A stretch of DNA of 64,000 bases, taken from Epsilonproteobacteria bacterium tcs-49. GTDB lineage: Bacteria > Campylobacterota > Campylobacteria > Campylobacterales > Sulfurovaceae. The stretch lies in NCBI GenBank assembly GCA_002049495.1, contig LLYS01000006.1, positions 62,001-126,000 on the forward strand, written 5' to 3'. Positions 23,076 through 47,907 of the stretch are shown one piece after another (within the stretch, counting starts at the first letter, position 1; each line of letters begins with the position of its first letter). The translations under genes were made by a program, and so were the position numbers. The notes beneath the pieces are model-generated. The model did no database searches and was not told the origin of the DNA. It saw only the letters and a list, made by a program, of their open reading frames with translations.

Positions 23076-24445
23076 AAACCGATCAACTCTTTCTCCGCAA
23101 TTTCCTGTTGATCTTGCTGCTCGTTCTTTTGGCTTCGGGCACCGCAACCTACGTCTGGTTCAAAAACATCTACCTTGCCCAGATCAAAACCAACCTTTCG
23201 CAAAATATCGATTCCGTTTCTTTGGTACTGCCAAACCTGGAATCCGTCGACGATTTTGTACAGGAGTATAGGAAAAAAACGGGGCTCCGTATCACCTTTA
23301 TCGCCCTTGACGGCCGGGTTCTCGCCGAAAGCCACGAAGATAAAACCCTCATGGAAAACCACCTCCACCGCGATGAGATCAGGCAGTTGAAAACGGCGAA
23401 GATGGGCCACTCCATCCGCTACTCCAAAACCCTGGGCAAGGAGTATCTCTATGTCGTCAAACAGATAGAGACGGAGGAAAAAGAGAGGGTGTATCTGCGT
23501 ATGGCCGATGATATCGAAAAGATCCGTGAAGGGTTTTTCAGCCTCTCCATGCAGATTATCGTCATCTTTGTGCTTTCTTTTATCATCGCCGTGGCGCTGG
23601 CGCTCAATATCAACAAAAGGTTAAAAAAGGAGACGGAAAATATCCTGGAGATTTTGCATATGCTTCTGGATAAAAAGAACTTTGAAATCGAGCGGATGGG
23701 GGAGCTGTATGAGTTTAACAAGATTACCCAACTGCTCGAGATCGTGGGCAGTAAGCTCAAACACCGAGAAAACCTCAAATCCAAGCAAAACGCCAAGCTC
23801 AAATTGGCCAACCGCCAAAAGGATGAGATCATCTCCGCGCTGAGTCACGAGTTTAAAAACCCAATCGCCGTGATAACGGGGTATTGCGAAAGCATGATCG
23901 GGCAGCAGATGGACCAAAGCATCGCCGATAAGTTTTTGAAAAAGATTGAAAACAACGCCCACAAGATGAGTGCGATTATCGACAAGCTGCGCCTTGCCAT
24001 CTCCCTGGAAGACGGGAGAAAAAACCTCAATTTCGAGCATTGCGATCTTCGTGGGCTGTGTGAAGAGTTAGCACAGGATATCAAGCAAAGTTACAAGGGG
24101 CGTGAAATCCACATCGAAGGGGAGGGGGTCTTTATCGAAGCCGATCCGGTACTCTTTGGCGTGGCCTTGACAAATCTGATGGAAAACGCGCTCAAATACT
24201 CCGAAAACGATGTGGAGGTCGTGGTACGCAAAGATTACGTCAAGGTGGTGGACCACGGGATCGGGATGGAGAAAAAGGAGCTTGAAAAGATTACCGACAA
24301 ATTCTACCGCGTCAGCACCAACCGCTGGAACAACTCCCTGGGGCTTGGGCTGAACATCGTCGATAACATCGTCCGCCTTCACGGGTTTACCCTGCAGATT
24401 ATGAGTCAAAAAAATATCGGCTCCACCTTCAAAATCACCTTTTAA
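23069..24445 (+). CDS. phoR: PhoR-like sensor histidine kinase
   Basis: A 458-residue membrane kinase. Two TM segments (residues 7-27 and about 155-177) flank a 125-residue extracytoplasmic domain. HisKA follows with ISALSHEFKNPIAVITGY (phospho-His about 259), then the ATPase domain with NLMENALKYSEN, VDHGIGM and NNSLGLGLNIVDN. The TTG start overlaps phoB by 7 bases. Role as the phosphate sensor is inferred from context: it lies between phoU-phoB and pit. Unlike E. coli PhoR it has a sizeable periplasmic domain and no obvious PAS domain. Confidence 0.88.
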   Translation: MLKTDQLFLRNFLLILLLVLLASGTATYVWFKNIYLAQIKTNLSQNIDSVSLVLPNLESVDDFVQEYRKKTGLRITFIALDGRVLAESHEDKTLMENHLHRDEIRQLKTAKMGHSIRYSKTLGKEYLYVVKQIETEEKERVYLRMADDIEKIREGFFSLSMQIIVIFVLSFIIAVALALNINKRLKKETENILEILHMLLDKKNFEIERMGELYEFNKITQLLEIVGSKLKHRENLKSKQNAKLKLANRQKDEIISALSHEFKNPIAVITGYCESMIGQQMDQSIADKFLKKIENNAHKMSAIIDKLRLAISLEDGRKNLNFEHCDLRGLCEELAQDIKQSYKGREIHIEGEGVFIEADPVLFGVALTNLMENALKYSENDVEVVVRKDYVKVVDHGIGMEKKELEKITDKFYRVSTNRWNNSLGLGLNIVDNIVRLHGFTLQIMSQKNIGSTFKITF

Positions 24446-24451
24446 CCCCCT

Positions 24452-24485
24452 TCGTAATCGCAATGTAATAAAGTTTTGCTATGAT
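24452..24485 (+). promoter_or_regulatory. PHO-box-like repeats before pit
   Basis: Two adjacent 11-bp units, TCGTAATCGCA (24452-24462) and ATGTAATAAAG (24463-24473), are followed by TATGAT (24480-24485), the same geometry as before pstS. Further TTACA units 11 and 10 bases apart occur near 24612-24637 on the opposite strand. This suggests Pho control of the pit gene. Confidence 0.55.
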
Positions 24486-24671
24486 GTTGCGATCAAATTG
24501 AAAAAAATTTGAAAATTTGTCCTGCGAAAAGTAGTAATATTTTATAGAGAACCCCCACAAAAACGCAATTTTCCCCATATCTTTGCTTAAGAAAGCTTTA
24601 ACGAATACTCATTACAATACCGTTATAAATTATTACAGGGTGTAATCAAAAACCCTTCAAAGAGGCTTGTA

Positions 24672-26255
24672 ATGGATATGAAAACCGTTGGCAAAGTAAA
24701 TAAGTACACGGAAAAATCCCAGACGGGATTTGCCCGTGCGTCTTTGGCACTGCTGTTCGTATTTGCCGTTTTTATGTGGAGTTATCTGACTCTGGGTGAC
24801 GTGGCGAATAATACATTTTTAATTATCGGTGCGGTATTTGGCGCTTATATGGCGATCAACATCGGGGCAAACGATGTGGCAAACAACGTCGGGCCGGCCG
24901 TGGGCTCAAAAGCTTTGACGCTTTTTTGGGCGATCGTTATCGCCGCCGTTTTTGAAGCGATGGGTGCGATTATCGCCGGCGGGGATGTCGTGGGAACGAT
25001 CAAAAAGGGGATTATCGATCCCGCGTTGATCGGTGATCCCGAAATCTTTATCTGGGCTATGACCGCCGCGCTGCTCGCTGCCGCACTGTGGCTCAATTTC
25101 GCCACATCGGTGGGGGCTCCCGTATCGACGACGCACTCCATCGTCGGCGGGGTGATGGGCGCGGGTATCGCCGCAGCCGGTTTTGCCATCGTCTCCTGGG
25201 GTACGATGGGCGCAATCGCGGCCAGTTGGGTCATCTCTCCCGTTTTGGGGGGCATGATCGCCGCGGGCTTTCTCTTTTTCATCAAAAAAACCATCGTGTA
25301 TCAAGAAGATATGGTCGAGGGTGCGAAAAAAGTAGTTCCACTGCTTATCGCAGCCATGAGTTGGGCTTTTGCGACCTATCTTATGGTCAAAGGGATCAAG
25401 AAAGTTATCAAGGTCGATTTTCTCATGGCGTTGGTATTGGGCTTTGTCATCGCAGCGGCGATCTATTTTTTTGTCAAACCCATGATCGAAAAGGCGGCAC
25501 GGAAGCTTAAAAACGACCGCGATAACGTCAATACGCTTTTTACGATCCCGCTTATCTTTGCCGCGGCTCTTTTGAGTTTTGCCCACGGGGCCAACGACGT
25601 GGCAAACGCTATCGGTCCCTTGGCTGCGATCAACGATGCGATCATGGGCGGTGCTATCGCCGATAAGGTGCAGATCCCCTTTTGGGTTTTAGCCGTCGGG
25701 GCGTTCGGTATCTCGGTGGGACTCGCGCTCTACGGTCCGAGGCTGATCAAAACCGTCGGCAGCGAAATTACCGAACTGGATCAGATGCGAGCCTACTCCA
25801 TCGCCATGGCGGCGGCGATCACCGTGATCATCGCTTCGCAGTTGGGACTTCCCGTCAGCTCCACCCACATCGCCGTCGGCGGGGTTTTTGGAGTAGGGTT
25901 CTTGCGCGAGTGGCTCAACTCCAGCGAATCCAACTGGATAAAAGAGACCAAAGAGAATTTCAAGCGCCACAAAAAGGAGCATGCGGAGTATGAGGATGAG
26001 TTGAAAGCTTTGGTGGATCTGGAGAGTAAGCAGAAGGAAAACTACGAGCGTATCGTAGAGTTGTATCGCCTTATCGAAGAGAAAGAGGAGATTTTAAAAT
26101 CCGAGAAAAAGGATTTCAAAGCGGCCAAAAAGGTGCAATACGTCAAACGCCACACCGTCAAAAAGATCGTATACGCCTGGATCATCACCGTTCCCGCGGC
26201 TGCACTGATCAGTTCGGGGATCTTTTTCATGATCAAGGGGATCATGGCGGGTTAA
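24672..26255 (+). CDS. pit: Inorganic phosphate transporter, PiT family
   Basis: A 527-residue membrane carrier that takes up phosphate (often as a metal-phosphate complex) with protons or sodium. The two inverted PHO4 repeats are clear: NIGANDVANNVGPAVGSKAL near residue 60 and AHGANDVANAIGPLAA near residue 306. Both GANDVAN motifs are intact, and PVSTTHSIVGGVMGAG and PVSSTHIAVGGVFGVG are also present. Residues about 420-490 form a charged, coiled-coil-prone cytoplasmic segment before a last TM helix. It is transcribed in the same direction as the pst-pho genes, behind its own PHO-like box. Confidence 0.95.
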   Translation: MDMKTVGKVNKYTEKSQTGFARASLALLFVFAVFMWSYLTLGDVANNTFLIIGAVFGAYMAINIGANDVANNVGPAVGSKALTLFWAIVIAAVFEAMGAIIAGGDVVGTIKKGIIDPALIGDPEIFIWAMTAALLAAALWLNFATSVGAPVSTTHSIVGGVMGAGIAAAGFAIVSWGTMGAIAASWVISPVLGGMIAAGFLFFIKKTIVYQEDMVEGAKKVVPLLIAAMSWAFATYLMVKGIKKVIKVDFLMALVLGFVIAAAIYFFVKPMIEKAARKLKNDRDNVNTLFTIPLIFAAALLSFAHGANDVANAIGPLAAINDAIMGGAIADKVQIPFWVLAVGAFGISVGLALYGPRLIKTVGSEITELDQMRAYSIAMAAAITVIIASQLGLPVSSTHIAVGGVFGVGFLREWLNSSESNWIKETKENFKRHKKEHAEYEDELKALVDLESKQKENYERIVELYRLIEEKEEILKSEKKDFKAAKKVQYVKRHTVKKIVYAWIITVPAAALISSGIFFMIKGIMAG

Positions 26256-26337
26256 ATTGCTCCGCAGCAGGGCTTTCGCCTTGCGGGCGCCGTGGACCAC
26301 GTCGCTTAATTGCGTTTATATTTAATAATATGATATA

Positions 26338-26595
26338 CTATTTTTTCTTCTTTTTTGAAAATCCGGAGTTTTTGGATTTTTTATTAAGATCAAGATCGCC
26401 GATCACCTCTTTGTAATCGATCCCCTCCTGCTGCATCTTGGCAAAGCAGGCGGCGATAACCGCTATGGTGTTGGGGACTTCCTCTTTCTTCTTGTAGGAT
26501 TGCACATTTTTTTCGCTCACTTTGATCAAACTGGTGAATTTGGGAATAGTCGTTTCCGCATCCAGCAACAGTTTTTTAAACTCGATAAATGTCAT
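26338..26595 (-). CDS. Small HTH-like hypothetical protein with polylysine tail
   Basis: An 85-residue basic protein. Residues 1-60 are helical with a pattern like a phage-type helix-turn-helix (FTSLIKVSEKNVQSYKKK, then VPNTIAVIAACFAKM), similar to plasmid/Xre-type DNA-binding proteins. The end is six lysines followed by the stop. A GGGGT site precedes the ATG. I do not recognise a named family. It stands alone between pit (convergent) and tetR. Confidence 0.65.
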   Translation of the reverse strand: MTFIEFKKLLLDAETTIPKFTSLIKVSEKNVQSYKKKEEVPNTIAVIAACFAKMQQEGIDYKEVIGDLDLNKKSKNSGFSKKKKK

Positions 26596-26670
26596 TGTAA
26601 CCCCGATTGAGAAATTTATTACGTAATTATATAGATAGAACAGTAAAAGTTTGATTACATTTTGTAATAA

Positions 26671-27282
26671 TCATGGGGAATTGTCGTTTTTTACACTCTC
26701 CCAGAAAAACTCCGTATGCTTTTCAAACATCGATGCCGTGACGTTGGTGGATTTCTTATCGGTTTTTTGCAGCACTATCTGCATCTGGTAAAAAAACAGC
26801 GGGGAGAGAAACTCGTTTGCCAAAAGCAGGGGATCGCCGGATTTGATAATCCCGTTTTGCATAAAAAGAAAAAATATTTGAGAAAGCTTTTTAAGATTGT
26901 GCTGGTAAAAGTGCTCGTTGAAACTGTTGCGCACGCTCTCGTTTTGAAACAGTTCAATCATCATGATTTTAAAAATCTTTTCATTTTTGCCGTCGAAACT
27001 GATCAGTTTAAAAACGGTCACGAACTCCGTGAGAAAAAGTTTGTTTTTTTCCAGGATAGACTCTTCATCATATTTCTCATACAACTCATTGAGCGCATTG
27101 GCACCGATATCTTGAATGATACGGTTAAAGATATCCTCCTTGTTTTTAAAGTGGTTATACAGCGCTCCTTGCTTGATACCTACCTCCGCGGCGATCTTTC
27201 GCACCGTCGTTCCCTTATATCCCAGCTCCGAGAAGAGGGCGATAGCGGATTTTAAAATTTTTTCCTTTGTAGAAAGGGCCAT
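26671..27282 (-). CDS. TetR-family transcriptional regulator
   Basis: A 203-residue repressor. The N-terminal helix-turn-helix is typical (KEKILKSAIALFSELGYKG, then VRKIAAEVGIKQGALYNHF), and the helical ligand domain follows. AGGAG lies 5 bases before the ATG. Upstream is an array of four palindromic operators with exact 43-bp spacing, the nearest lying directly upstream of the -10 box, so it almost certainly represses itself. No efflux pump, enzyme or divergent gene adjoins it, so its other targets are unknown. Confidence 0.93.
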   Translation of the reverse strand: MALSTKEKILKSAIALFSELGYKGTTVRKIAAEVGIKQGALYNHFKNKEDIFNRIIQDIGANALNELYEKYDEESILEKNKLFLTEFVTVFKLISFDGKNEKIFKIMMIELFQNESVRNSFNEHFYQHNLKKLSQIFFLFMQNGIIKSGDPLLLANEFLSPLFFYQMQIVLQKTDKKSTNVTASMFEKHTEFFWESVKNDNSP

Positions 27283-27312
27283 GGAAACTCCTAAAACAGA
27301 TACTTCTCACGT

Positions 27313-27462
27313 ATTATAGTGAACAATCGTTCATATGTCAACAAAGAGCCGCATGGAGAAGGTGAACAACTGTTCATACGGCAACAGGAGGGAGCGTTTT
27401 GAATATGAACAACCGTTCATAAGCCGGATAGGTATACTCGCCACTAAGTGAACAATCGTTCA
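27313..27462 (-). promoter_or_regulatory. tetR promoter and four-operator array with 43-bp period
   Basis: Four near-identical palindromes TGAAC-N4-GTTCA lie at 27320-27333, 27363-27376, 27406-27419 and 27449-27462. Each start is exactly 43 bases from the last, about four helical turns, so all face one side of the DNA. The centres read AATC, AACT, AACC and AATC. On the minus strand a TATAAT (27318-27313) sits next to the first operator, which therefore covers the spacer/-35 zone of the tetR promoter. The 29-base spacers begin alike (TATG, TACG, TAAG), hinting at tandem duplication. Confidence 0.85.
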
Positions 27463-27666
27463 TCTTTAAAGCATCTATATTTAGGGTTTTTGAGAGTTAC
27501 TAAATACTATGGTATAGAGTGGAAAAACGCTACGTTTAACGGCTTTTCCCGGTTTGAGCGCGCCGTTTTGCCCGTATCAGTGATCAGAAGATGTCCAGGG
27601 GGAGAAAAATCCCGTATAGTTTGAAAAAAAGAGTCGGGGTAAAAGGGATAAATATAAAAATTTCGA
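27463..27666. other. Gene-free stretch between operator array and kdsB terminator
   Basis: About 200 bases with no credible coding frame on either strand and no recognised RNA. It may be the remains of a gene once controlled by the TetR operators, but I see no homology to support this. Confidence 0.4.
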
Positions 27667-27694
27667 GTAACTCATATTAAAAAATATGAGTTAC
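27667..27694 (-). terminator. Rho-independent terminator of kdsB
   Basis: A perfect 12-bp inverted repeat GTAACTCATATT/AATATGAGTTAC with a 4-base loop lies 11 bases past the kdsB stop. On the minus strand it is followed by TCGAAATTTTTAT, a moderate U-rich tract. It separates kdsB transcription from tetR. Confidence 0.8.
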
Positions 27695-27705
27695 GGAAGA
27701 AGGGG

Positions 27706-28425
27706 TTATTTGCTGAAGTAGGCTTTTGCTTTTTCTAAATCTTCGGGGGTGTCGATGCCGAAGCTTTCCGTCGCGACACCGGTCATCGCTACTTTATAGC
27801 CGTGGTAAATCGCCCGCAGCTGCTCCAGTTTTTCGATATCCTCCAAAGGAGCTTCGGGTAAAGCGCAGAAACGCTCCAAGCTTTTTTTGGTATATCCGTA
27901 CAGACCCAGGTGGCCTTTAAACTCATCGTAGCGACCGTCCCGGGGATAGGGCAGCAGACTTCTGGAAAAGTAGACGGCGTGTTCTCCGGCGTTGAGGATC
28001 ACTTTGACCAGGTTGGGATCCTTTGCCTGTTCCGCCGAGATCTTTTTGTAGGCGCTGTTGAGCATAATTTCGCTGTCGTGGCGGTGCCGCCGGGTCAACT
28101 CCAGGACCTGCGCGACCACCTCCTTTTCGATAAAGGGTTCGTCGCCCTGGACGTTGACGATCACCTCCTCATCGCGCAGCCCCAGCTTTGCAGCCGCTTC
28201 ATTGATGCGGTCGGTACCGCTTTTGTGGTTTGCCGAAGTCAAAACCGCTTCAAAATCGTACTCTTTCGCTAGGGCGACCACTTCGGGAGAGTCCGTAGCG
28301 ATAGCGACGCTATCAAGCTCCTTGACCTGCATAGCGGTGCGTACTACCATGGGGATGCCGTCAATAGGTGCCAAGACCTTTCGGGGAAAGCGCGAGGAAT
28401 CGATGCGCGCGGGTATTATAATCAT
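27706..28425 (-). CDS. kdsB: 3-deoxy-manno-octulosonate cytidylyltransferase
   Basis: KdsB activates KDO as CMP-KDO for lipopolysaccharide core synthesis. The 239-residue product shows the CTP-binding start IIPARIDSSRFPRKVLAPIDG, NVQGDEPFIE near residue 92, and FSRSLLPYPRD and the C-terminal GIDTPEDLEKA. AAGG precedes the ATG by 8 bases. Length is normal. A hairpin terminator follows. Confidence 0.97.
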   Translation of the reverse strand: MIIIPARIDSSRFPRKVLAPIDGIPMVVRTAMQVKELDSVAIATDSPEVVALAKEYDFEAVLTSANHKSGTDRINEAAAKLGLRDEEVIVNVQGDEPFIEKEVVAQVLELTRRHRHDSEIMLNSAYKKISAEQAKDPNLVKVILNAGEHAVYFSRSLLPYPRDGRYDEFKGHLGLYGYTKKSLERFCALPEAPLEDIEKLEQLRAIYHGYKVAMTGVATESFGIDTPEDLEKAKAYFSK

Positions 28426-28546
28426 CTGTGTTACCTTTTGTATGCAAGATCATATTATCTCTTATCAAAGTTTTCTCGGGCTTGAGATTTAATTTACTCT
28501 TACATTTTTGTATGATATTCTATCAAAAAACCCAAGGAGTTCCTCT

Positions 28547-31500
28547 ATGGAAAGCAATCTGGATCTTATTTGCGGCGACATTTTGCGGCAAAGCGATTTT
28601 GAAGTGGATGAAACCATACAGAAGAAATTAACAAAGCAAAAGGTCGTCATCGAGATCAACGACGCCCCCGGGATAAAACTCTATTCCAAAGATAAGATCA
28701 TTTTGTCAGAGATCGTACCGACGATCCACTCGTTCGGATTTTTAATCGATCACGAAATCTCCTATACCGTAGATGAGATCTGCATTATCAAGATCAACCT
28801 CATCGTCGACAATGTGGATCTTTTGCTCAAACACAGTAAAAATATCAGCGATATTCTCTTTGCCCGTCTGGATTCCTCCCTGCGCTACGATTGTTCTTTA
28901 TTTTTCCTTACCTATAAAAACAACTTTTCAAAACGGGAGTTTGAACTGTTTGACGCGTTGGTGGAGTACCAAAATCAACTTTTCGCCAGCTTTAACCGTG
29001 CGGCGATCGTAAACGTTTTGACCCTCTATCCCAAAACGGCGAAGTGTGCGCTGAATCTGTTCAAGGCCAAGTTCGATCCCGCCAAAGGTAAAAACCGCGC
29101 GACCGACATCAAAAAGCGCCAGGATGCGTTTATCGAAAGTTTGAAAGATATCAGCGGGATCAACGACGATAAGATCGCCAAAACCCTCTATGAGATTTTG
29201 GACAATATGGTACGGACCAACTACTATATGCACAAATCCACCCTGGCGTTCAAAGTCAACGTCGCAGGGTTTAAAAATCTGCTTCGCGGTACCCAGCCCA
29301 ATATCGAAACCTTCGTCCACAGCCGCGATATCAGCGGGACGCACAACAGAACGGGCAAAATTTGCCGCGGCGGACTTCGCTGGAGCGACCGCCCCGATGA
29401 TTTCAGGGATGAAGTCAAATCGCTCATGACAGCCCAGGAGGGGAAAAACGCGGTGATCATCCCCAACGGCTCCAAAGGCGGCTTTGTCATCCACCGCGAA
29501 AATGTGGACAGGGAGAGTTTTCAAAGCTTTTACGAAGAGTATATCAACGCATTGCTTGACGTGGTCGATACCAAGGAGGACGATGCAGTGATCCGCGACG
29601 AGCGCATCGTAGCGTACGACGGAGAGGATTCCTATTTCGTCGTTGCCGCGGACAAGGGTACTTCGGCCATGAGCGACGTGGCCAACGCCATCTCCGTCAA
29701 TCGCGGTTTCTGGTTGGGTGATGCCTTTGCCAGCGGCGGCAGCCACGGTTACCATCACAAGCGGCTGGGGATTACCGCCAAGGGTGCTATCAAATCCACC
29801 GCGCGCTTTTTTATCGAAAAGGGGGTCAATTTTTACGAAGAACCCATCACCGTCGTGGGGATCGGCTCCATGAACGGCGACGTCTTCGGCAACGGGATGA
29901 TCGAAAGCGACAAGTTCAAACTCTTAGGCGCCATCAGCCACAAAGAGATCTTTATCGATCCCGATCCCGACCCCCGGGTCTCTTACGAGGAGCGCAAGCG
30001 GCTGTTTGAATCCAAAAACGGAGCCTGGAATCAGTATGAAAAGCTATCGGAGGGGGGTGCGGTATACCGCAGGGATCAGCGCAATATCGATCCCACGCCC
30101 CAGATCAGGGAACTGCTCAAGATCAAAACCAAAACCATCGATGCGGATGAGTTGGCCAAAAAGCTGCTGAGTCTGAAAGTGGATATGTTTTACAACGGCG
30201 GCGTGGGGACCTACGTCAAAAGCTCCAACGAAACCAACATCGAAGTTGGGGATAAGGAAAACGAGTACGTACGGATCGATGCCAATGAGGTCAAATCCTA
30301 CTGTGTCTGCGAGGGGGGAAATCTGGGCTTTACCCAGGAAGCGAGGGTGGAGTACGCCAAAAGAGGCGGCAAGATCAACCTGGACAGCGTAGACAACTCC
30401 GCGGGGGTCGATACCAGCGACCATGAGGTCAATTTCAAAATTCTGCTGAGCATTCTGGAGAAAAAAAGCCTCGTATCCAACAAATACGAAGTACTCGAAG
30501 AGTTGACGCCCCACGTGGTCAATACGGTGTTGTGGACCAACTACTTCCAATCGCTCTCCATCTCGCTGGACGAGGAGCGCTCCAAAACTTCCCCCAAACG
30601 TTTTGAGCGTACCCTGGACGTTTTGGCAAACAACCTGGACTTTTTCAACAAAAAAAGCTTCGCCCTGGAGGAGTTTGAGGCCCACAACGATAAGATCATC
30701 CGCCCCATGCTTTCGATTTTGACGCTGTATTCCAAGATCTTTATCAAAAACCAGCTGTTGGCTTCGGAGATGATCGATGATAAGGATTTTGAAGTCTACC
30801 TTTACAAATACTTCCCCAAAACCTTTATCGTCTCCTTTGAAGATCAGATCAAACACCATCCGCTCAAAAAGCAGATCATCGCCACGATCATCGCAAACAA
30901 GATCATCAATTTTCACGGGGCGACGTTTATCCACGATTTTGAAAAGCTGGGCGCGCAGAAGTTTTTGCTCAAGATCAAATCCTATCTGATCATGAACGAC
31001 CTCTTCAGTACCAACGACGTCCGCTACGAAATCTACAGAAACGATTTCGCCGTTACGACGCAAAAGCAGTATAAACTGCTTATCGAGATCGAAGATGCGA
31101 TCGCGTACGGGCTCAATACGATGCTGACCATGAACCCCGACGATATCAATTTCGAATCGATCCTTGCGCATAAAGACAACCTCAACAAGGTCCTTGACGG
31201 TATCATGCGATCCAGGGTCAACGCCGTTAAGGACAACGACGCGATCAACGACTTTTTCTCCAAAGTCAACTACCTCAAACTCGTGACCGATATCCTCATC
31301 ATCGAGCATAGTACCGAACATACCTTCCTTGAGGTGGCGGAGCTGTTCTTCTATCTCGTGGATAAGCTCAAAATCAACCTGCTGGTCCAAAAGGTCAAAG
31401 ACGCGCCGCTGAAAGATGAGCAGGAGAAAACGATCCAGGACCAGCTTGATTGCATCATCCGCAACTGGCTGGAGGATATGATGCGCAAACTGCTCAACTT

Positions 31501-40954: not shown

Positions 40955-41068
40955 TTTTTGTGTACTCGTTTGATTATAGCATAAAAATATTTCCCCTTTA
41001 TGTCAAAACCCGTATCTTTACAGTTTCAGCCCAATTTGATTACAATACAGGGAAAAAACGGAGCGCAT

Positions 41069-42259
41069 TTGAAGCTACTGCACACTTCCGATTGGCATCT
41101 GGGACAAAACTTTATGGGACAAAGCAGGCAAAGCGAGCATGAAGCTTTTTTGACCTGGCTGCTTGAGCGTATAGAGGAGAAACGGGTCGAGGTTTTGCTC
41201 GTCGCCGGCGACATCTTCGATACGGGTACGCCGCCAAATTACGCTTTGGAGATCTATTACAACTTTTTAAAGCGCTTAGCTTCGATCGAAACGCTGCAAA
41301 CGGCGATCATCACCGCGGGAAACCACGACTCCGTAGCTACGCTCAAAGCCCCCAAGCAGCTTTTGCAAGCGTTGAACGTCCACGTCATCGCAAGCGGGGA
41401 TGAGAGCGAAGAGGAGGTGATTCCCGTCTATAAAGATGACAGGTTGCAAGCGGTGGTCTGCGCCGTCCCCTTTTTGCGCGATAGCGTCATCCGCCAATCC
41501 GCAAGCGCGCAGACGAGCAGCGACAAAGAAAAGCTGGCCAACGAGGGGATCAAGGCTTATTATGAAAACACCTATGAAAAGGCCCGCAAGCTCAAAGGCG
41601 AAGCGGAGGTACCCATCATCGCCACGGGGCATTTGACCACAGTAGGTAGCCGCACCAGCGAAAGCGAGCGTGATATCTACATCGGCGGGACGCTTGATAT
41701 CGGCGGGGATTATCTGGCGGAGATGTTCGACTACGTCGCTTTGGGGCATCTGCACATCAATCAGAAGGTCAAAAGCGAGCGGGTGCGCTACAGCGGTTCT
41801 CCCATACCGCTGAGTTTCAGCGAAGCCAACAATACCCAAAAGGTCAATCTCGTCACCTTTGAAAAAGGGGGTATGGACGTAGAGCTGCTGGAGGTGCCCA
41901 AAACCCGAGACCTGATCATACTCAAAGGCGATGCCGAAACGGTGCAGGGCGAGCTGGAAAAGATAGTGGATACAACGGCGTGGATAGAGGTGCACTTAGA
42001 TGACGATAATCCGATGCAGGCCAACACCGAGATACGCGAAAAAGCTGCCGAGTCGGGGGTGACACTGCTGGCGGTAAAGGTGCAAAAAAGCCAAAAACAG
42101 CTGCGTGCCAGGGAGCTCAAAGCGATCAGCCTGGAGGAACTGAGCATCTCCCAGGTTTTTGACAAGCGTTTGGAACAGGAAGCCTTAGAGGATAAGCGGT
42201 TGGAAAGAAAGCTCAAAGAAAACTTTGCCGCCGTGGTTGAGAGGGTGCAGAACCGATGA
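41069..42259 (+). CDS. sbcD: Exonuclease SbcCD, nuclease subunit SbcD
   Basis: SbcD is the Mre11-type nuclease that with SbcC cuts hairpins and blocked DNA ends. The 396-residue product from the TTG at 41069 starts LLHTSDWHLGQNF and contains the metallophosphatase motifs LLVAGDIFDTG, ITAGNHDSV, ATGHLT and VALGHLHINQ. I prefer this start to the ATG at 41000 because the first phosphoesterase motif lies directly after it and CGGAG precedes it. The stop overlaps the sbcC start (ATGA). Confidence 0.93.
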   Translation: MKLLHTSDWHLGQNFMGQSRQSEHEAFLTWLLERIEEKRVEVLLVAGDIFDTGTPPNYALEIYYNFLKRLASIETLQTAIITAGNHDSVATLKAPKQLLQALNVHVIASGDESEEEVIPVYKDDRLQAVVCAVPFLRDSVIRQSASAQTSSDKEKLANEGIKAYYENTYEKARKLKGEAEVPIIATGHLTTVGSRTSESERDIYIGGTLDIGGDYLAEMFDYVALGHLHINQKVKSERVRYSGSPIPLSFSEANNTQKVNLVTFEKGGMDVELLEVPKTRDLIILKGDAETVQGELEKIVDTTAWIEVHLDDDNPMQANTEIREKAAESGVTLLAVKVQKSQKQLRARELKAISLEELSISQVFDKRLEQEALEDKRLERKLKENFAAVVERVQNR

Positions 42260-45200
42260 AGATACGTAAACTCAGAGCACTCAATATCAATTCGCTCAAA
42301 GGCGAAACAGAGATCGATTTTGAAACCTTTTTAGAAGGGGCATCGCTGTTTGCCATCACCGGACCCACGGGAGCGGGCAAGAGTACGATCCTCGATATCA
42401 TCACCTGCGCGCTGTACGGCAGAACGCCGAGACTGAGCAATCCCAACGACTTGATGAGCCGCCACAGCGGCGAGTGTTTTTGCGAAGTGGAGTTTGCTAT
42501 CAATGAGAGGGTATATCGCTGCTCCTGGAGCCAGAAGCGCGCGTATAAAAAGGCTGATGGCAACTTCCAAACGGCGAAGATGGAGCTGGCGGAGGTACAA
42601 AGCGGGAAAGTGTTGGAATCCAAGCTGCGTGAAGTCCCCAAAAAGGTCCAGGAGCTTTCGGGGCTGGATTTTGAGCGCTTTACCCAGTCGATGATGCTGG
42701 CACAGGGCTCCTTCGACGCCTTTTTTAAAGCCAAAGAAAATGACCGTTCCAGCCTGCTGGAGCGCATAACGGGTACGCAGGTGTATAAGCAGATTTCGCA
42801 GGAGGTGTATGAAACCTACGCCCAGAAAAAGCGCGAGATCGAGCTGGAGGAAAACGCCCTGGGGGCGATCGAGCTGCTGGAAAAGGAGCAACGGGAGCAA
42901 AAATCACAAACCCTGAGCGAATACGGCAAGCGAAAGCGACAGCTGGATGCGCGGGAGGGGGAGCTTAAAAAGATCGCCGCGTGGCAGCAGGGGCTGCAAA
43001 CGCTGGAGCGCGACAGCGCGGCGCAAAAGATCGAGTATGAAAAAGCGCGTACGCAGATGGAGCAAAACGGTGCGCTGTTTAACAGGCTCGAACTGGCAAA
43101 AAAAGCCGGACGGGCGCAAGAGATCTACCGGGAGAGGGAGCTTTTGCGTCAAACTATCGCCGAAGACGCGCGGCAGCTGGGGCAACTGGAGCGTCAAAGC
43201 AGCGAGTGCGCGCGGGAGATAGGGACAAAGCAGCACGAAGCAGACGCCGCGCAAAAAGCGCTGGCGGAAGAAAAAAGCGGCTACGAAGCGCAAACGGCCA
43301 AGCTCAAGCGGCTGCGCGAGCTGCGCACACAGATCGAGAGTATCCGCTCCAGACAGCACCGGCTGGAGCAAAAGTGCGCCCAAAGCACAGAGGAAGCGGC
43401 GCGTCTGCTGGAGCTATCAGGCGGGGCGGAGCAAGCCGGGATAGAGCAGCGCTACGAGAAGCTCAGCGAAGAGATCGCGCAGCTGACTACGAGCGCGCAG
43501 GAGTTGGAGCAAGAGTGCGAAAAGCTTGAAAGCCGGGGGGATTCCGAGCGCAGGGAGGAGAGTCTGCGAACACGGCTGCACGAGAGTGAAAAGCTGCTCG
43601 AAGCGGTACAAAACTACGAGCAAAACAGCCAAACCCTGCACACCCGTAAGCAGGAAAAAAAGCGCCTGGAGGAGTCGGTAGAACAGGGAAGCCGCGAAAA
43701 CGCGGAGAAAGCCAAGCTGGTAGCGCAGATGCAAAAAAGTCTGGAACTTTTGCAAGACAAGCGGGAGCATGAATTGCTTATTAAAAAATATGAAAGCGAT
43801 AGAGCCAGATTGCGGCAGGGGCAGGAGTGTTTCCTGTGCGGCGCGAAGGAGCACCCCTACATCGACCACGGGCTCAATACCGACCCCGAGGGGACGCAGG
43901 AGCAGATACAGCGGCAGGAGCGGCAGCTGCAGGAGGAAAACGCCCGACTGCGCCAAAGCGAGATAGAGCTGGGGGCCAACCGCTCGCGCCATGACAGCGT
44001 AACCGAGCAGCTCGCAACGCTGGAGCTAGAGCAGCAGAGGATAGAACAGATCTTTGCCCAAAACGGCTTTACCTATGAAAAGCAAGCGCGGGAGCGGCTG
44101 GAGGCGCAGAAAAGGGAGGCAGAAACCCGTCTTGGGGAGATGATCGCTTCGCGAAAGCAGCAACGGCACCTGCAGGAGCAAAGAAAGAGGGTAGAGCAAA
44201 ACCGTAACGAAAAGATCCGCCTGCAGATACGGGTGCAGAGTCTTCTGGAGGGGCTCAAAGAGGCGACAAAAGAGCGCAAAGAGGCGGCAAAGGAGGCTGA
44301 AGCGCTGCAAGAGCAGGGCAAAGCGGTGCTGGACGTGGCGGACCCGGACACCTTTGAGCAAAACCTCATCCGCCGCTATGAAACGGTGCAGCAGCGAGCA
44401 AACGCTGCGCAAAACCGGCTGGCACAGCTGCGCTCGACGCAAGAAGCGCTCCAGACGCAGATAAAGCAGCTGCGAACCAAGCAAGAAAGCGACGAGGCGA
44501 AGCGAAAAGCCGTAAACGAAGAGTTCGCCCAAGCGCTGCGGGAGCAGGGCTTTGCCGATGAGGAGGAGTTTGCGGCCGCACTTTTGGACCCGGGTGAGTA
44601 TGAGGAGTTGGCAAAGCGGTGCGAGCAGCTGCAGCGCGACTACGAGCGCATCCAAACCCTGCAAAAGGAAACGGCGCGCAAACTCAAAGAGCAGCAGGCC
44701 CTCAAGCTAAGCGATAAAAGCCTACAGGAGGTGACACGGGAGCTTGCCGCGCTGCAAGAGGAGATAGACACGCTGCAAAAACGGATCGGCAGCGTGGAAA
44801 AGGAGCTGGAGATCGATGCGGCCAACCGCCGAAAACATGCGCAAAAGATCGAGCATATCGAGCGTAAAAAGGAGGCGTTTGCGGTGTGGGTCAAACTCAA
44901 CGAGATGGTCGGCTCCTCCAGCGGCGACAAATTCGCCAAATTCGCCCAGGGGATTACGCTCGATCAATTGATCTATCTGGCAAATAGGCACCTGCGCATC
45001 CTCAGCCCCCGCTATGAGCTCCAAAGGGCAGAAGACGCGAACAAGCAGCTCGAGATCGAGATTATCGACGGGTTCCAGGGGGACGCGGTGCGTCCGGTCA
45101 GTACGCTCTCCGGCGGCGAGAGCTTTATCGTCAGCCTCTCTTTGGCGCTGGGGCTTTCCAATCTGGCAAGCCAAAAGATCGCCATCGATTCGCTGTTTTT

Positions 45201-45390
45201 GGACGAGGGATTCGGCACGCTGGACGGGCAGAGCCTGGAGCTGGCACTCAATGCGCTGAACAGGCTGCAAGACAGCGGCAAGATGGTGGGCGTGATTTCG
45301 CACGTCGAAGCGCTCAAAGAGCGGATACCGCTGCAGATAAAGGTGGTGCCTAAGGGTGATGGGACAAGCAGGGTGGAGATGAGTGAGTAG
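42256..45390 (+). CDS. sbcC: Exonuclease SbcCD, ATPase subunit SbcC
   Basis: A 1044-residue SMC/Rad50-type ATPase. Walker A GPTGAGKSTILD is near residue 36. Two long coiled-coil arms surround a zinc-hook centre with ECFLCGAKEHPY near residue 525 (the CxxC that joins two molecules; usually CPxC). The C-terminal lobe has the signature LSGGESFIVSLSLALGLS and Walker B LFLDEGFGTLDG. It forms the DNA-end-processing complex with the overlapping sbcD product. Length and domain plan are normal. Confidence 0.96.
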   Translation: MKIRKLRALNINSLKGETEIDFETFLEGASLFAITGPTGAGKSTILDIITCALYGRTPRLSNPNDLMSRHSGECFCEVEFAINERVYRCSWSQKRAYKKADGNFQTAKMELAEVQSGKVLESKLREVPKKVQELSGLDFERFTQSMMLAQGSFDAFFKAKENDRSSLLERITGTQVYKQISQEVYETYAQKKREIELEENALGAIELLEKEQREQKSQTLSEYGKRKRQLDAREGELKKIAAWQQGLQTLERDSAAQKIEYEKARTQMEQNGALFNRLELAKKAGRAQEIYRERELLRQTIAEDARQLGQLERQSSECAREIGTKQHEADAAQKALAEEKSGYEAQTAKLKRLRELRTQIESIRSRQHRLEQKCAQSTEEAARLLELSGGAEQAGIEQRYEKLSEEIAQLTTSAQELEQECEKLESRGDSERREESLRTRLHESEKLLEAVQNYEQNSQTLHTRKQEKKRLEESVEQGSRENAEKAKLVAQMQKSLELLQDKREHELLIKKYESDRARLRQGQECFLCGAKEHPYIDHGLNTDPEGTQEQIQRQERQLQEENARLRQSEIELGANRSRHDSVTEQLATLELEQQRIEQIFAQNGFTYEKQARERLEAQKREAETRLGEMIASRKQQRHLQEQRKRVEQNRNEKIRLQIRVQSLLEGLKEATKERKEAAKEAEALQEQGKAVLDVADPDTFEQNLIRRYETVQQRANAAQNRLAQLRSTQEALQTQIKQLRTKQESDEAKRKAVNEEFAQALREQGFADEEEFAAALLDPGEYEELAKRCEQLQRDYERIQTLQKETARKLKEQQALKLSDKSLQEVTRELAALQEEIDTLQKRIGSVEKELEIDAANRRKHAQKIEHIERKKEAFAVWVKLNEMVGSSSGDKFAKFAQGITLDQLIYLANRHLRILSPRYELQRAEDANKQLEIEIIDGFQGDAVRPVSTLSGGESFIVSLSLALGLSNLASQKIAIDSLFLDEGFGTLDGQSLELALNALNRLQDSGKMVGVISHVEALKERIPLQIKVVPKGDGTSRVEMSE

Positions 45391-47820: not shown

Positions 47821-47907
47821 AAGCGAAGAGCAGTAAAATCTTCATGTTGGTTAACATAATATAAATTCTCTTGAAAATATATTCTCCGCACTCCGGCGCT
47901 TTGCACC

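Follow-up and report, generated by a model that had tools for sequence, protein, structure and literature searches.

SlmA prevents Z-ring assembly through its binding to FtsZ, and the fork traps Tus and RTP arrest replication forks in a polar manner at paired, opposed Ter sites. Other proteins are also tied to particular regions of the bacterial chromosome. The sites of SlmA, which acts in nucleoid occlusion in Enterobacteria, are mainly coding and absent from Ter, and the terminus organiser MatP has 23 matS sites spread over Ter (PMC3116907, part of the text). RefZ, involved in septum placement in Bacillus, has five sites, at the chromosome arms and near oriC (PMC6657595, part of the text). 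The literature consulted on dif and chromosome-position proteins also includes the accessible parts of PMC5241119, PMC3228812, and PMC6682613. Within this coverage, which leaves aside most subscription papers and preprints, we came across neither a dif-linked TetR nor an operator array like the one described here.

The window, i.e. the whole 64-kb stretch of DNA analysed, encodes a TetR-family DNA-binding protein of 203 aa (tetR, 26671..27282, minus strand), orthologue of a dif-linked TetR in other Campylobacterota. Four exact TGAAC-N4-GTTCA palindromes lie between the start of tetR and the 3′ end of kdsB (27706-28425, minus strand). Operator 1 (TGAACAATCGTTCA, 27320..27333) is the closest to tetR and is followed on the plus strand by operator 2 (TGAACAACTGTTCA, 27363..27376), operator 3 (TGAACAACCGTTCA, 27406..27419), and operator 4 (TGAACAATCGTTCA, 27449..27462), the most distant one. 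Thus, the four palindromes and the exact 43-bp steps between their starts (27320, 27363, 27406, and 27449), as described in an earlier note on this DNA, were all verified on the sequence. They fall within 143 bp, against 1.85 matches expected in the whole 64-kb window when up to one mismatch is allowed. The genome-wide search that the same note had proposed retrieved six exact TGAACN4GTTCA sites in 2.22 Mb, four of them being the array, and the reversed control pattern had two matches in this genome. The operator consensus built from orthologues (WKAACRNNYGTTMW) gave seven matches, again with the array accounting for four.

The tetR promoter (TTGACA-17-TATAAT, 27313..27341, minus strand) matches 12/12 consensus bases and carries operator 1 in its 17-bp spacer, so self-repression is the plain expectation for this sigma-70 promoter, and we infer that tetR represses itself through operator 1. 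A palindromic operator overlapping the own promoter is a trait of the TetR/AcrR family, and the predicted operator 1 provides it here. The lack of an adjacent target gene, as first suggested, holds for other genes and not for tetR itself, whose perfect promoter overlaps operator 1. The similarity proposed among the spacers was confirmed between spacers 1 and 2 (15/29 identical positions, shuffle frequency 0.004), while spacers 2 and 3 (7/29) and 1 and 3 (9/29) were at chance level. A tandem duplication is weakly supported for that one spacer pair, and we set it aside as the origin of the array because the likeness is found in one pair alone.

A small RNA or antisense unit past operator 4 was also considered and dropped: no Rfam family reached the threshold in 24000-30000, and past operator 4 there was no plus-strand promoter among those listed by the scan, which gave no excess over shuffles. 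Just beyond the kdsB stop codon, an inverted repeat (TAACTCATAT...ATATGAGTTA, 27669-27695) can be seen by eye and is perhaps a terminator that shields the array from transcription of kdsB. On the other side, tetR is followed by an 85-aa ORF of the same orientation (26338-26595, minus), without Pfam or NCBIfam match, that may be co-transcribed with it.

At the protein level, the product belongs to the TetR/AcrR family according to its TetR_N domain (61 bits, cut-off 24), which is its only Pfam match. The AlphaFold2 model (pLDDT 92.2) presents the all-helical TetR fold and matches solved structures with Z of 17 to 20, the closest being ordinary repressors (FadR, MtrR, and EthR). SlmA is not among the structure matches listed, which is no evidence either way. 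Among the NCBIfam TetR matches listed, the protein stays under the cut-off of each model, including those for SlmA (NF007015, 32.8 vs. 120 bits), RefZ (NF037937, 43.4 vs. 180 bits), and efflux repressors (NF051852, 64.4 vs. 280 bits; NF007949, 51.5 vs. 271 bits). Conservation spans the full protein (59% mean column identity), and K92, E110, R118, P151, H189, and W194 are among the invariant residues beyond the helix-turn-helix. Sulfurovum- and Nitratifractor-like TetR proteins (loci L008-L017, L022, L027, and L087) end in a short C-terminal tail, mostly ...TLF or ...LF, that is missing from the window TetR and from those of Sulfurimonas; its sequence is possibly a docking motif.

To describe the array in relatives, we used the best 80 of 190 related stretches from a protein search of a genome collection, two of them from one assembly (L031 and L053). 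Nearly all belong to Campylobacterota, with 30 to 56% identity to the window TetR, and the TetR tree groups by family. Each 14-mer within 290 bp upstream of tetR was scored, 18 points being the full score. Four sites were found in 58 of these best 80 loci, three in 17, five in two, two in one (L048, whose upstream sequence is cut off), and none in two (L084 and L086). Hence the array length, whose comparison had been recommended, is three to five sites in 77/80 loci, and this retention across orthologues supports the view that there are more operators than self-repression needs. Full-score sites numbered 271 in the 290-bp upstream zones of the 80 orthologues vs. 0 in 539,368 bp of flanks. The half-sites of the orthologue arrays vary (TGAAC, TTAAC, AGAAC) and the AAC-R-NN-Y-GTT core is constant. 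The neighbours of tetR differ by lineage, and no other gene is constant on either side. A local regulon was rejected because there is neither a constant neighbour gene nor a motif excess in the own genome.

Two loci stand apart. L084, a Sulfurimonas orthologue, lacks the array and has no dif in 4 kb on either side, both missing together. L086 (around 85-197), a diverged TetR relative (31% identity) from a Sulfurovum assembly, has no array and carries a dif-like site about 112 bp upstream of the start. In the class as a whole, a match at E 1e-20 or better was found in 71/397 genomes, with one copy per genome. The other 326/397, including eight listed genomes of the window's family, have no match at that threshold, so the gene is dispensable or replaceable.

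The spacing of the operators follows a strict rule. Among the best 80 of 190 loci, and excluding a weak fifth site in L026, the 219 successive spacings form three classes with means of 21.92, 32.03, and 42.79 bp (n = 12, 173, and 34) and none between, which correspond to two, three, and four helical turns. On the TetR tree, the class changed at least six, at least six, and at least four times at the three gaps, numbered from tetR. Repeated length changes by whole turns, without intermediates, are evidence for a selected same-face arrangement that is independent of the exact 43 bp in the window. Differing spacing in close relatives had been named as an observation that would speak against the phasing; it does occur, but by whole turns, and so it favours the phasing. 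Thus, with all 219 spacings at whole turns, comparison of these sequences strongly supports that the operators are arranged on one DNA face under selection. A rule that admits whole turns only, despite changing spacer lengths and sequences, offers a natural experiment on how repressor dimers assemble on the same face.

The main point, absent from the first interpretation, is the link to dif: the array and tetR belong to the replication terminus and are linked to dif or difH. The distance from tetR to dnaA was 0.461 to 0.498 of the genome length –most lengths being rounded values– in 22/22 single-contig genomes, placing tetR opposite dnaA. dnaA was sought in 28 genomes, and the six two-contig ones were omitted from the 22, including G204, where the value would be near 0.30. 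The search patterns were built from the dif of two relatives and the difH of others (PMC2731167 and PMC3325230, in part), and a second dif pattern was applied to 49 genomes. Wherever tetR and the site shared a contig, dif or difH was on the array side of tetR (60/60 genomes). These 60 are the measurable ones among 71 tetR genomes: dif was on another contig in three (G037, G307, and G387) and no dif was recognised in eight (G139, G204, G234, G285, G313, G365, G388, and G396).

For XerCD-type genomes (n = 50), the median distance between tetR and dif was 748 bp; it did not exceed 2.1 kb in 41 genomes and was larger in the other nine, with a maximum of 80 kb. Besides the window's own, eight of the 60 genomes have dif 3.7 to 80 kb from tetR. 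The XerH-type genomes had difH 175 to 268 bp from tetR in 10/10 cases. The relative orientation of dif was conserved in 48/50 XerCD-type and 9/10 XerH-type genomes. At the locus level, a recognised dif within 2.2 kb was not found in 11/59 loci having sufficient upstream sequence. Moreover, the dif positions published for Sulfurimonas denitrificans, Sulfurovum NBC37-1, and Nitratiruptor SB155-2 (accessible part of PMC2731167) match those in G328, G264, and G036, which we infer to be these genomes.

The window genome is an exception among the linked genomes. Its dif (27 bp, reverse complement TTCAAGAGAATTTATATTATGTTAACC, 47849..47875, minus strand), the single match in the genome to a reference dif taken from the available part of PMC2731167, is 20.6 kb from tetR and inverted relative to the relatives. 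Thus, tight adjacency is not needed in this genome. The assembly consists of 17 contigs, and its tetR-dnaA distance is not among the 22 measured; GC skew gave no clear sign change in the window. About 2.5 kb from dif, two adjacent genes (41000-45390, plus strand) look sbcD- and sbcC-like by eye from their translations.

Outside the array, the window's genome (G000) holds three motif sites vs. five for an N5 control, in which the half-sites are one base farther apart. Four further genomes of the family hold about three or four each vs. 2, 8, 6, and 9 for the control. The motif is thus rare outside the array in the window's family, and in G000 it is not in excess of the control. The motif is more frequent in Sulfurimonas-type genomes: 22 vs. 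9 N5 sites in G288 and 23 vs. 11 in G328. Sampling half of the genome, outside the terminus region, gave 18.75 motif sites per Mb vs. 5.54 for 79 control spacings in G116, and 8.75 vs. 1.98 per Mb in G288. The terminus third held none (G116) and one (G288), and the control spacings were not depleted there. Other palindromes can equal the operator frequency (WKCAA-type palindromes in G116: five in ter and 14 elsewhere), so the enrichment rests on the spacing control.

Pooling G328, G288, G116, and G129, which were picked for having listed sites, 5/88 sites fell in the array-centred chromosome third, a third defined after the gap was seen (binomial p 4e-10); part of these sites may be shared by descent, as 12 related ORF pairs, within or between genomes, occur among the 56 site-holding ORFs. 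The largest site-free gap surrounds the array in G328, G288, and G116 (552, 812, and 857 kb), and in G129 a gap extends from 656 to 1522 kb. Counted by hand, the terminus third held 0/7 sites in G145, 1/11 in G057, 1/2 in G036, 2/4 in G225, 1/3 in G221, and 0/3 in G058. Sites were also counted, although not all of them listed, in G264, G333, G360, G252, G319, and G343.

Most of the sites examined in Sulfurimonas-type genomes were coding (38/46, the 46 including one from G058), and 8/46 were intergenic vs. 4/16 for the N5 control (G288 and G328 have 20 N5 sites, of which 16 were used). On these proportions a promoter regulon was rejected for Sulfurimonas-type genomes. The genes holding the sites mostly differ from genome to genome. 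Three of the 11 N5 sites of G328 (L169, L171, and L176) are the same site with a 153-aa ORF repeated at three places, probably an insertion sequence.

On balance, we favour, with a confidence slightly above even, a reading in which a conserved TetR encoded at the terminus uses the array both to regulate its own gene and as an anchor, and would act as a chromosome-position factor at dif. TetR dimers would occupy the operators on one DNA face. The dimer on operator 1 would block RNA polymerase at the tetR promoter and keep TetR scarce, and the remaining dimers would raise occupancy and build a stable nucleoprotein patch beside dif. The main job of TetR would be a positional one rather than control of a distant operon: it would mark or organise the terminus, or couple the place on the chromosome with division or dimer resolution. 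Sulfurimonas-type TetR probably has, like SlmA, additional binding sites scattered elsewhere on the chromosome, whereas that of the window's family is apparently confined to the array. We favour a positional role because the association of dif, the array, and tetR is retained under two Xer systems and other neighbours change; including all its variants, it is somewhat the more probable selected function when set against control of a gene set. The ordinary ligand-binding repressor fold and sequence, and the 326/397 class genomes without a match at E 1e-20, are points against it, as are the distant dif of the window's own and eight further genomes and the 11/59 loci without a recognised dif nearby. 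If it is right, this regulator possibly marks a chromosome position rather than controlling an ordinary gene set. The dif linkage in both XerH and XerCD systems makes a terminus function directly testable at low cost.

The fold also suits an ordinary repressor with autoregulation, originally in charge of a local xerH-difH-array-tetR module, that senses a ligand or signal and controls xerH and itself. Hydrogenimonas and Nitratiruptor-type loci carry a divergent tyrosine recombinase (PF18644 and PF00589) beyond difH, taken to be XerH from its domains; there difH separates the array from the divergently oriented xerH. In the window, the tetR promoter is within the array. XerCD lineages would then have lost xerH and kept a tetR remnant in place by inheritance. 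However, the dif linkage persists without a xerH neighbour while other neighbours turn over, and up to five operators are still phased by whole turns after the supposed loss, so we regard this origin as rather unlikely. The same XerH loci bear on a second possibility, in which the array would form an accessory nucleoprotein complex assisting Xer recombination, of the ArgR/PepA at cer type, and would control its directionality or topology at dif. The array is always on one side of dif, whose orientation is conserved, and in 9/12 XerH loci the outermost operator and the difH centre are separated by 62 to 67 bp. The other three, at 72, 87, and 103 bp, show that difH is not strictly phased, and we do not claim phasing of difH with the array. 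Together with the XerCD genomes, where the distance runs from about 0.2 to 80 kb, and the window, with 20.6 kb, this makes an accessory complex distinctly improbable.

The terminus position and the rows of up to five operators would also fit a replication or transcription roadblock, where dimers firmly bound next to dif would stop forks, or insulate dif, much as RTP or Tus do. Yet the sites are symmetric and form a single cluster, without the opposed pairs of Ter sites that characterise the known traps, and we consider a roadblock very unlikely. Finally, dif has been described as favouring DNA mobility (PMC2731167, in the part available), and tetR with its array could be a passenger of integration there, the relic of an Xer-using mobile element. 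That reading is already disfavoured and hardly credible, as the TetR tree follows families, each genome has one copy, the array is conserved, and every relative in the plasmid and phage collections is below 60% identity (the best ones listed, 25 to 41%).

Compared with the described systems, TetR proteins dedicated to chromosome position are known already, and we found none encoded at dif with an operator array phased by whole turns. The XerH/difH and XerS/difSL modules are similar in having a gene linked to dif, and in the XerH lineages the array and tetR adjoin difH. As far as the accessible parts of PMC2731167 and PMC5357621 describe them, those modules hold the recombinase only, with no mention of a TetR gene or operator array; here, unlike in them, the linkage of tetR and array also persists in XerCD lineages. 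Accessory sites of the cer/psi type keep a fixed short distance, and in XerCD genomes the distance here ranges from 0.2 to 80 kb; the distance between array and difH is near constant only in XerH lineages. Autoregulated TetR repressors of the AcrR, MtrR, QacR, and FadR types share the fold and the overlap with the own promoter, but they differ in what surrounds them: here there is no retained efflux or metabolic operon, three to five operators are phased by whole turns, and the position is conserved. No efflux operon was found beside tetR, no neighbour cluster is constant, and none of the five distinct types of neighbour examined with Pfam is an efflux gene.

Like RefZ, the protein is a TetR-family member with few near-palindromic sites at a conserved chromosome position; unlike RefZ, its sites form one clustered, phased array at the terminus. 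It shares the association with the terminus with MatP/matS, but has one cluster, and its protein is TetR_N only in Pfam. The likeness to SlmA lies in the family and, for Sulfurimonas-type relatives, in a scattered, mostly coding motif missing around the terminus. The differences are the motif (GTGAGTACTCAC for SlmA), the dif region, which is free of SlmA sites and here holds the gene and a phased array, and the window's family, which has no scattered sites and thus gives no ground for extending the SlmA-like part to the window. From these comparisons of sequence and position, we can only tentatively propose, as a minority reading, that the dif-encoded TetR might be the Campylobacterota counterpart of SlmA or RefZ, coupling division or segregation to the terminus. 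Position would be read through the same-face array at dif and, in Sulfurimonas-type genomes, also through sites in coding regions, some tens of them, that stay clear of a zone of ~550 to 870 kb surrounding the terminus. Such a counterpart would add another case of the TetR fold being recruited for this task, its gene lying in the region that it marks. SlmA, SeqA, and MatP were presented as the first macrodomain-specific DNA-binding proteins, with more expected (PMC3116907, part of the text), and the array with its TetR is a concrete candidate for one in Campylobacterota.
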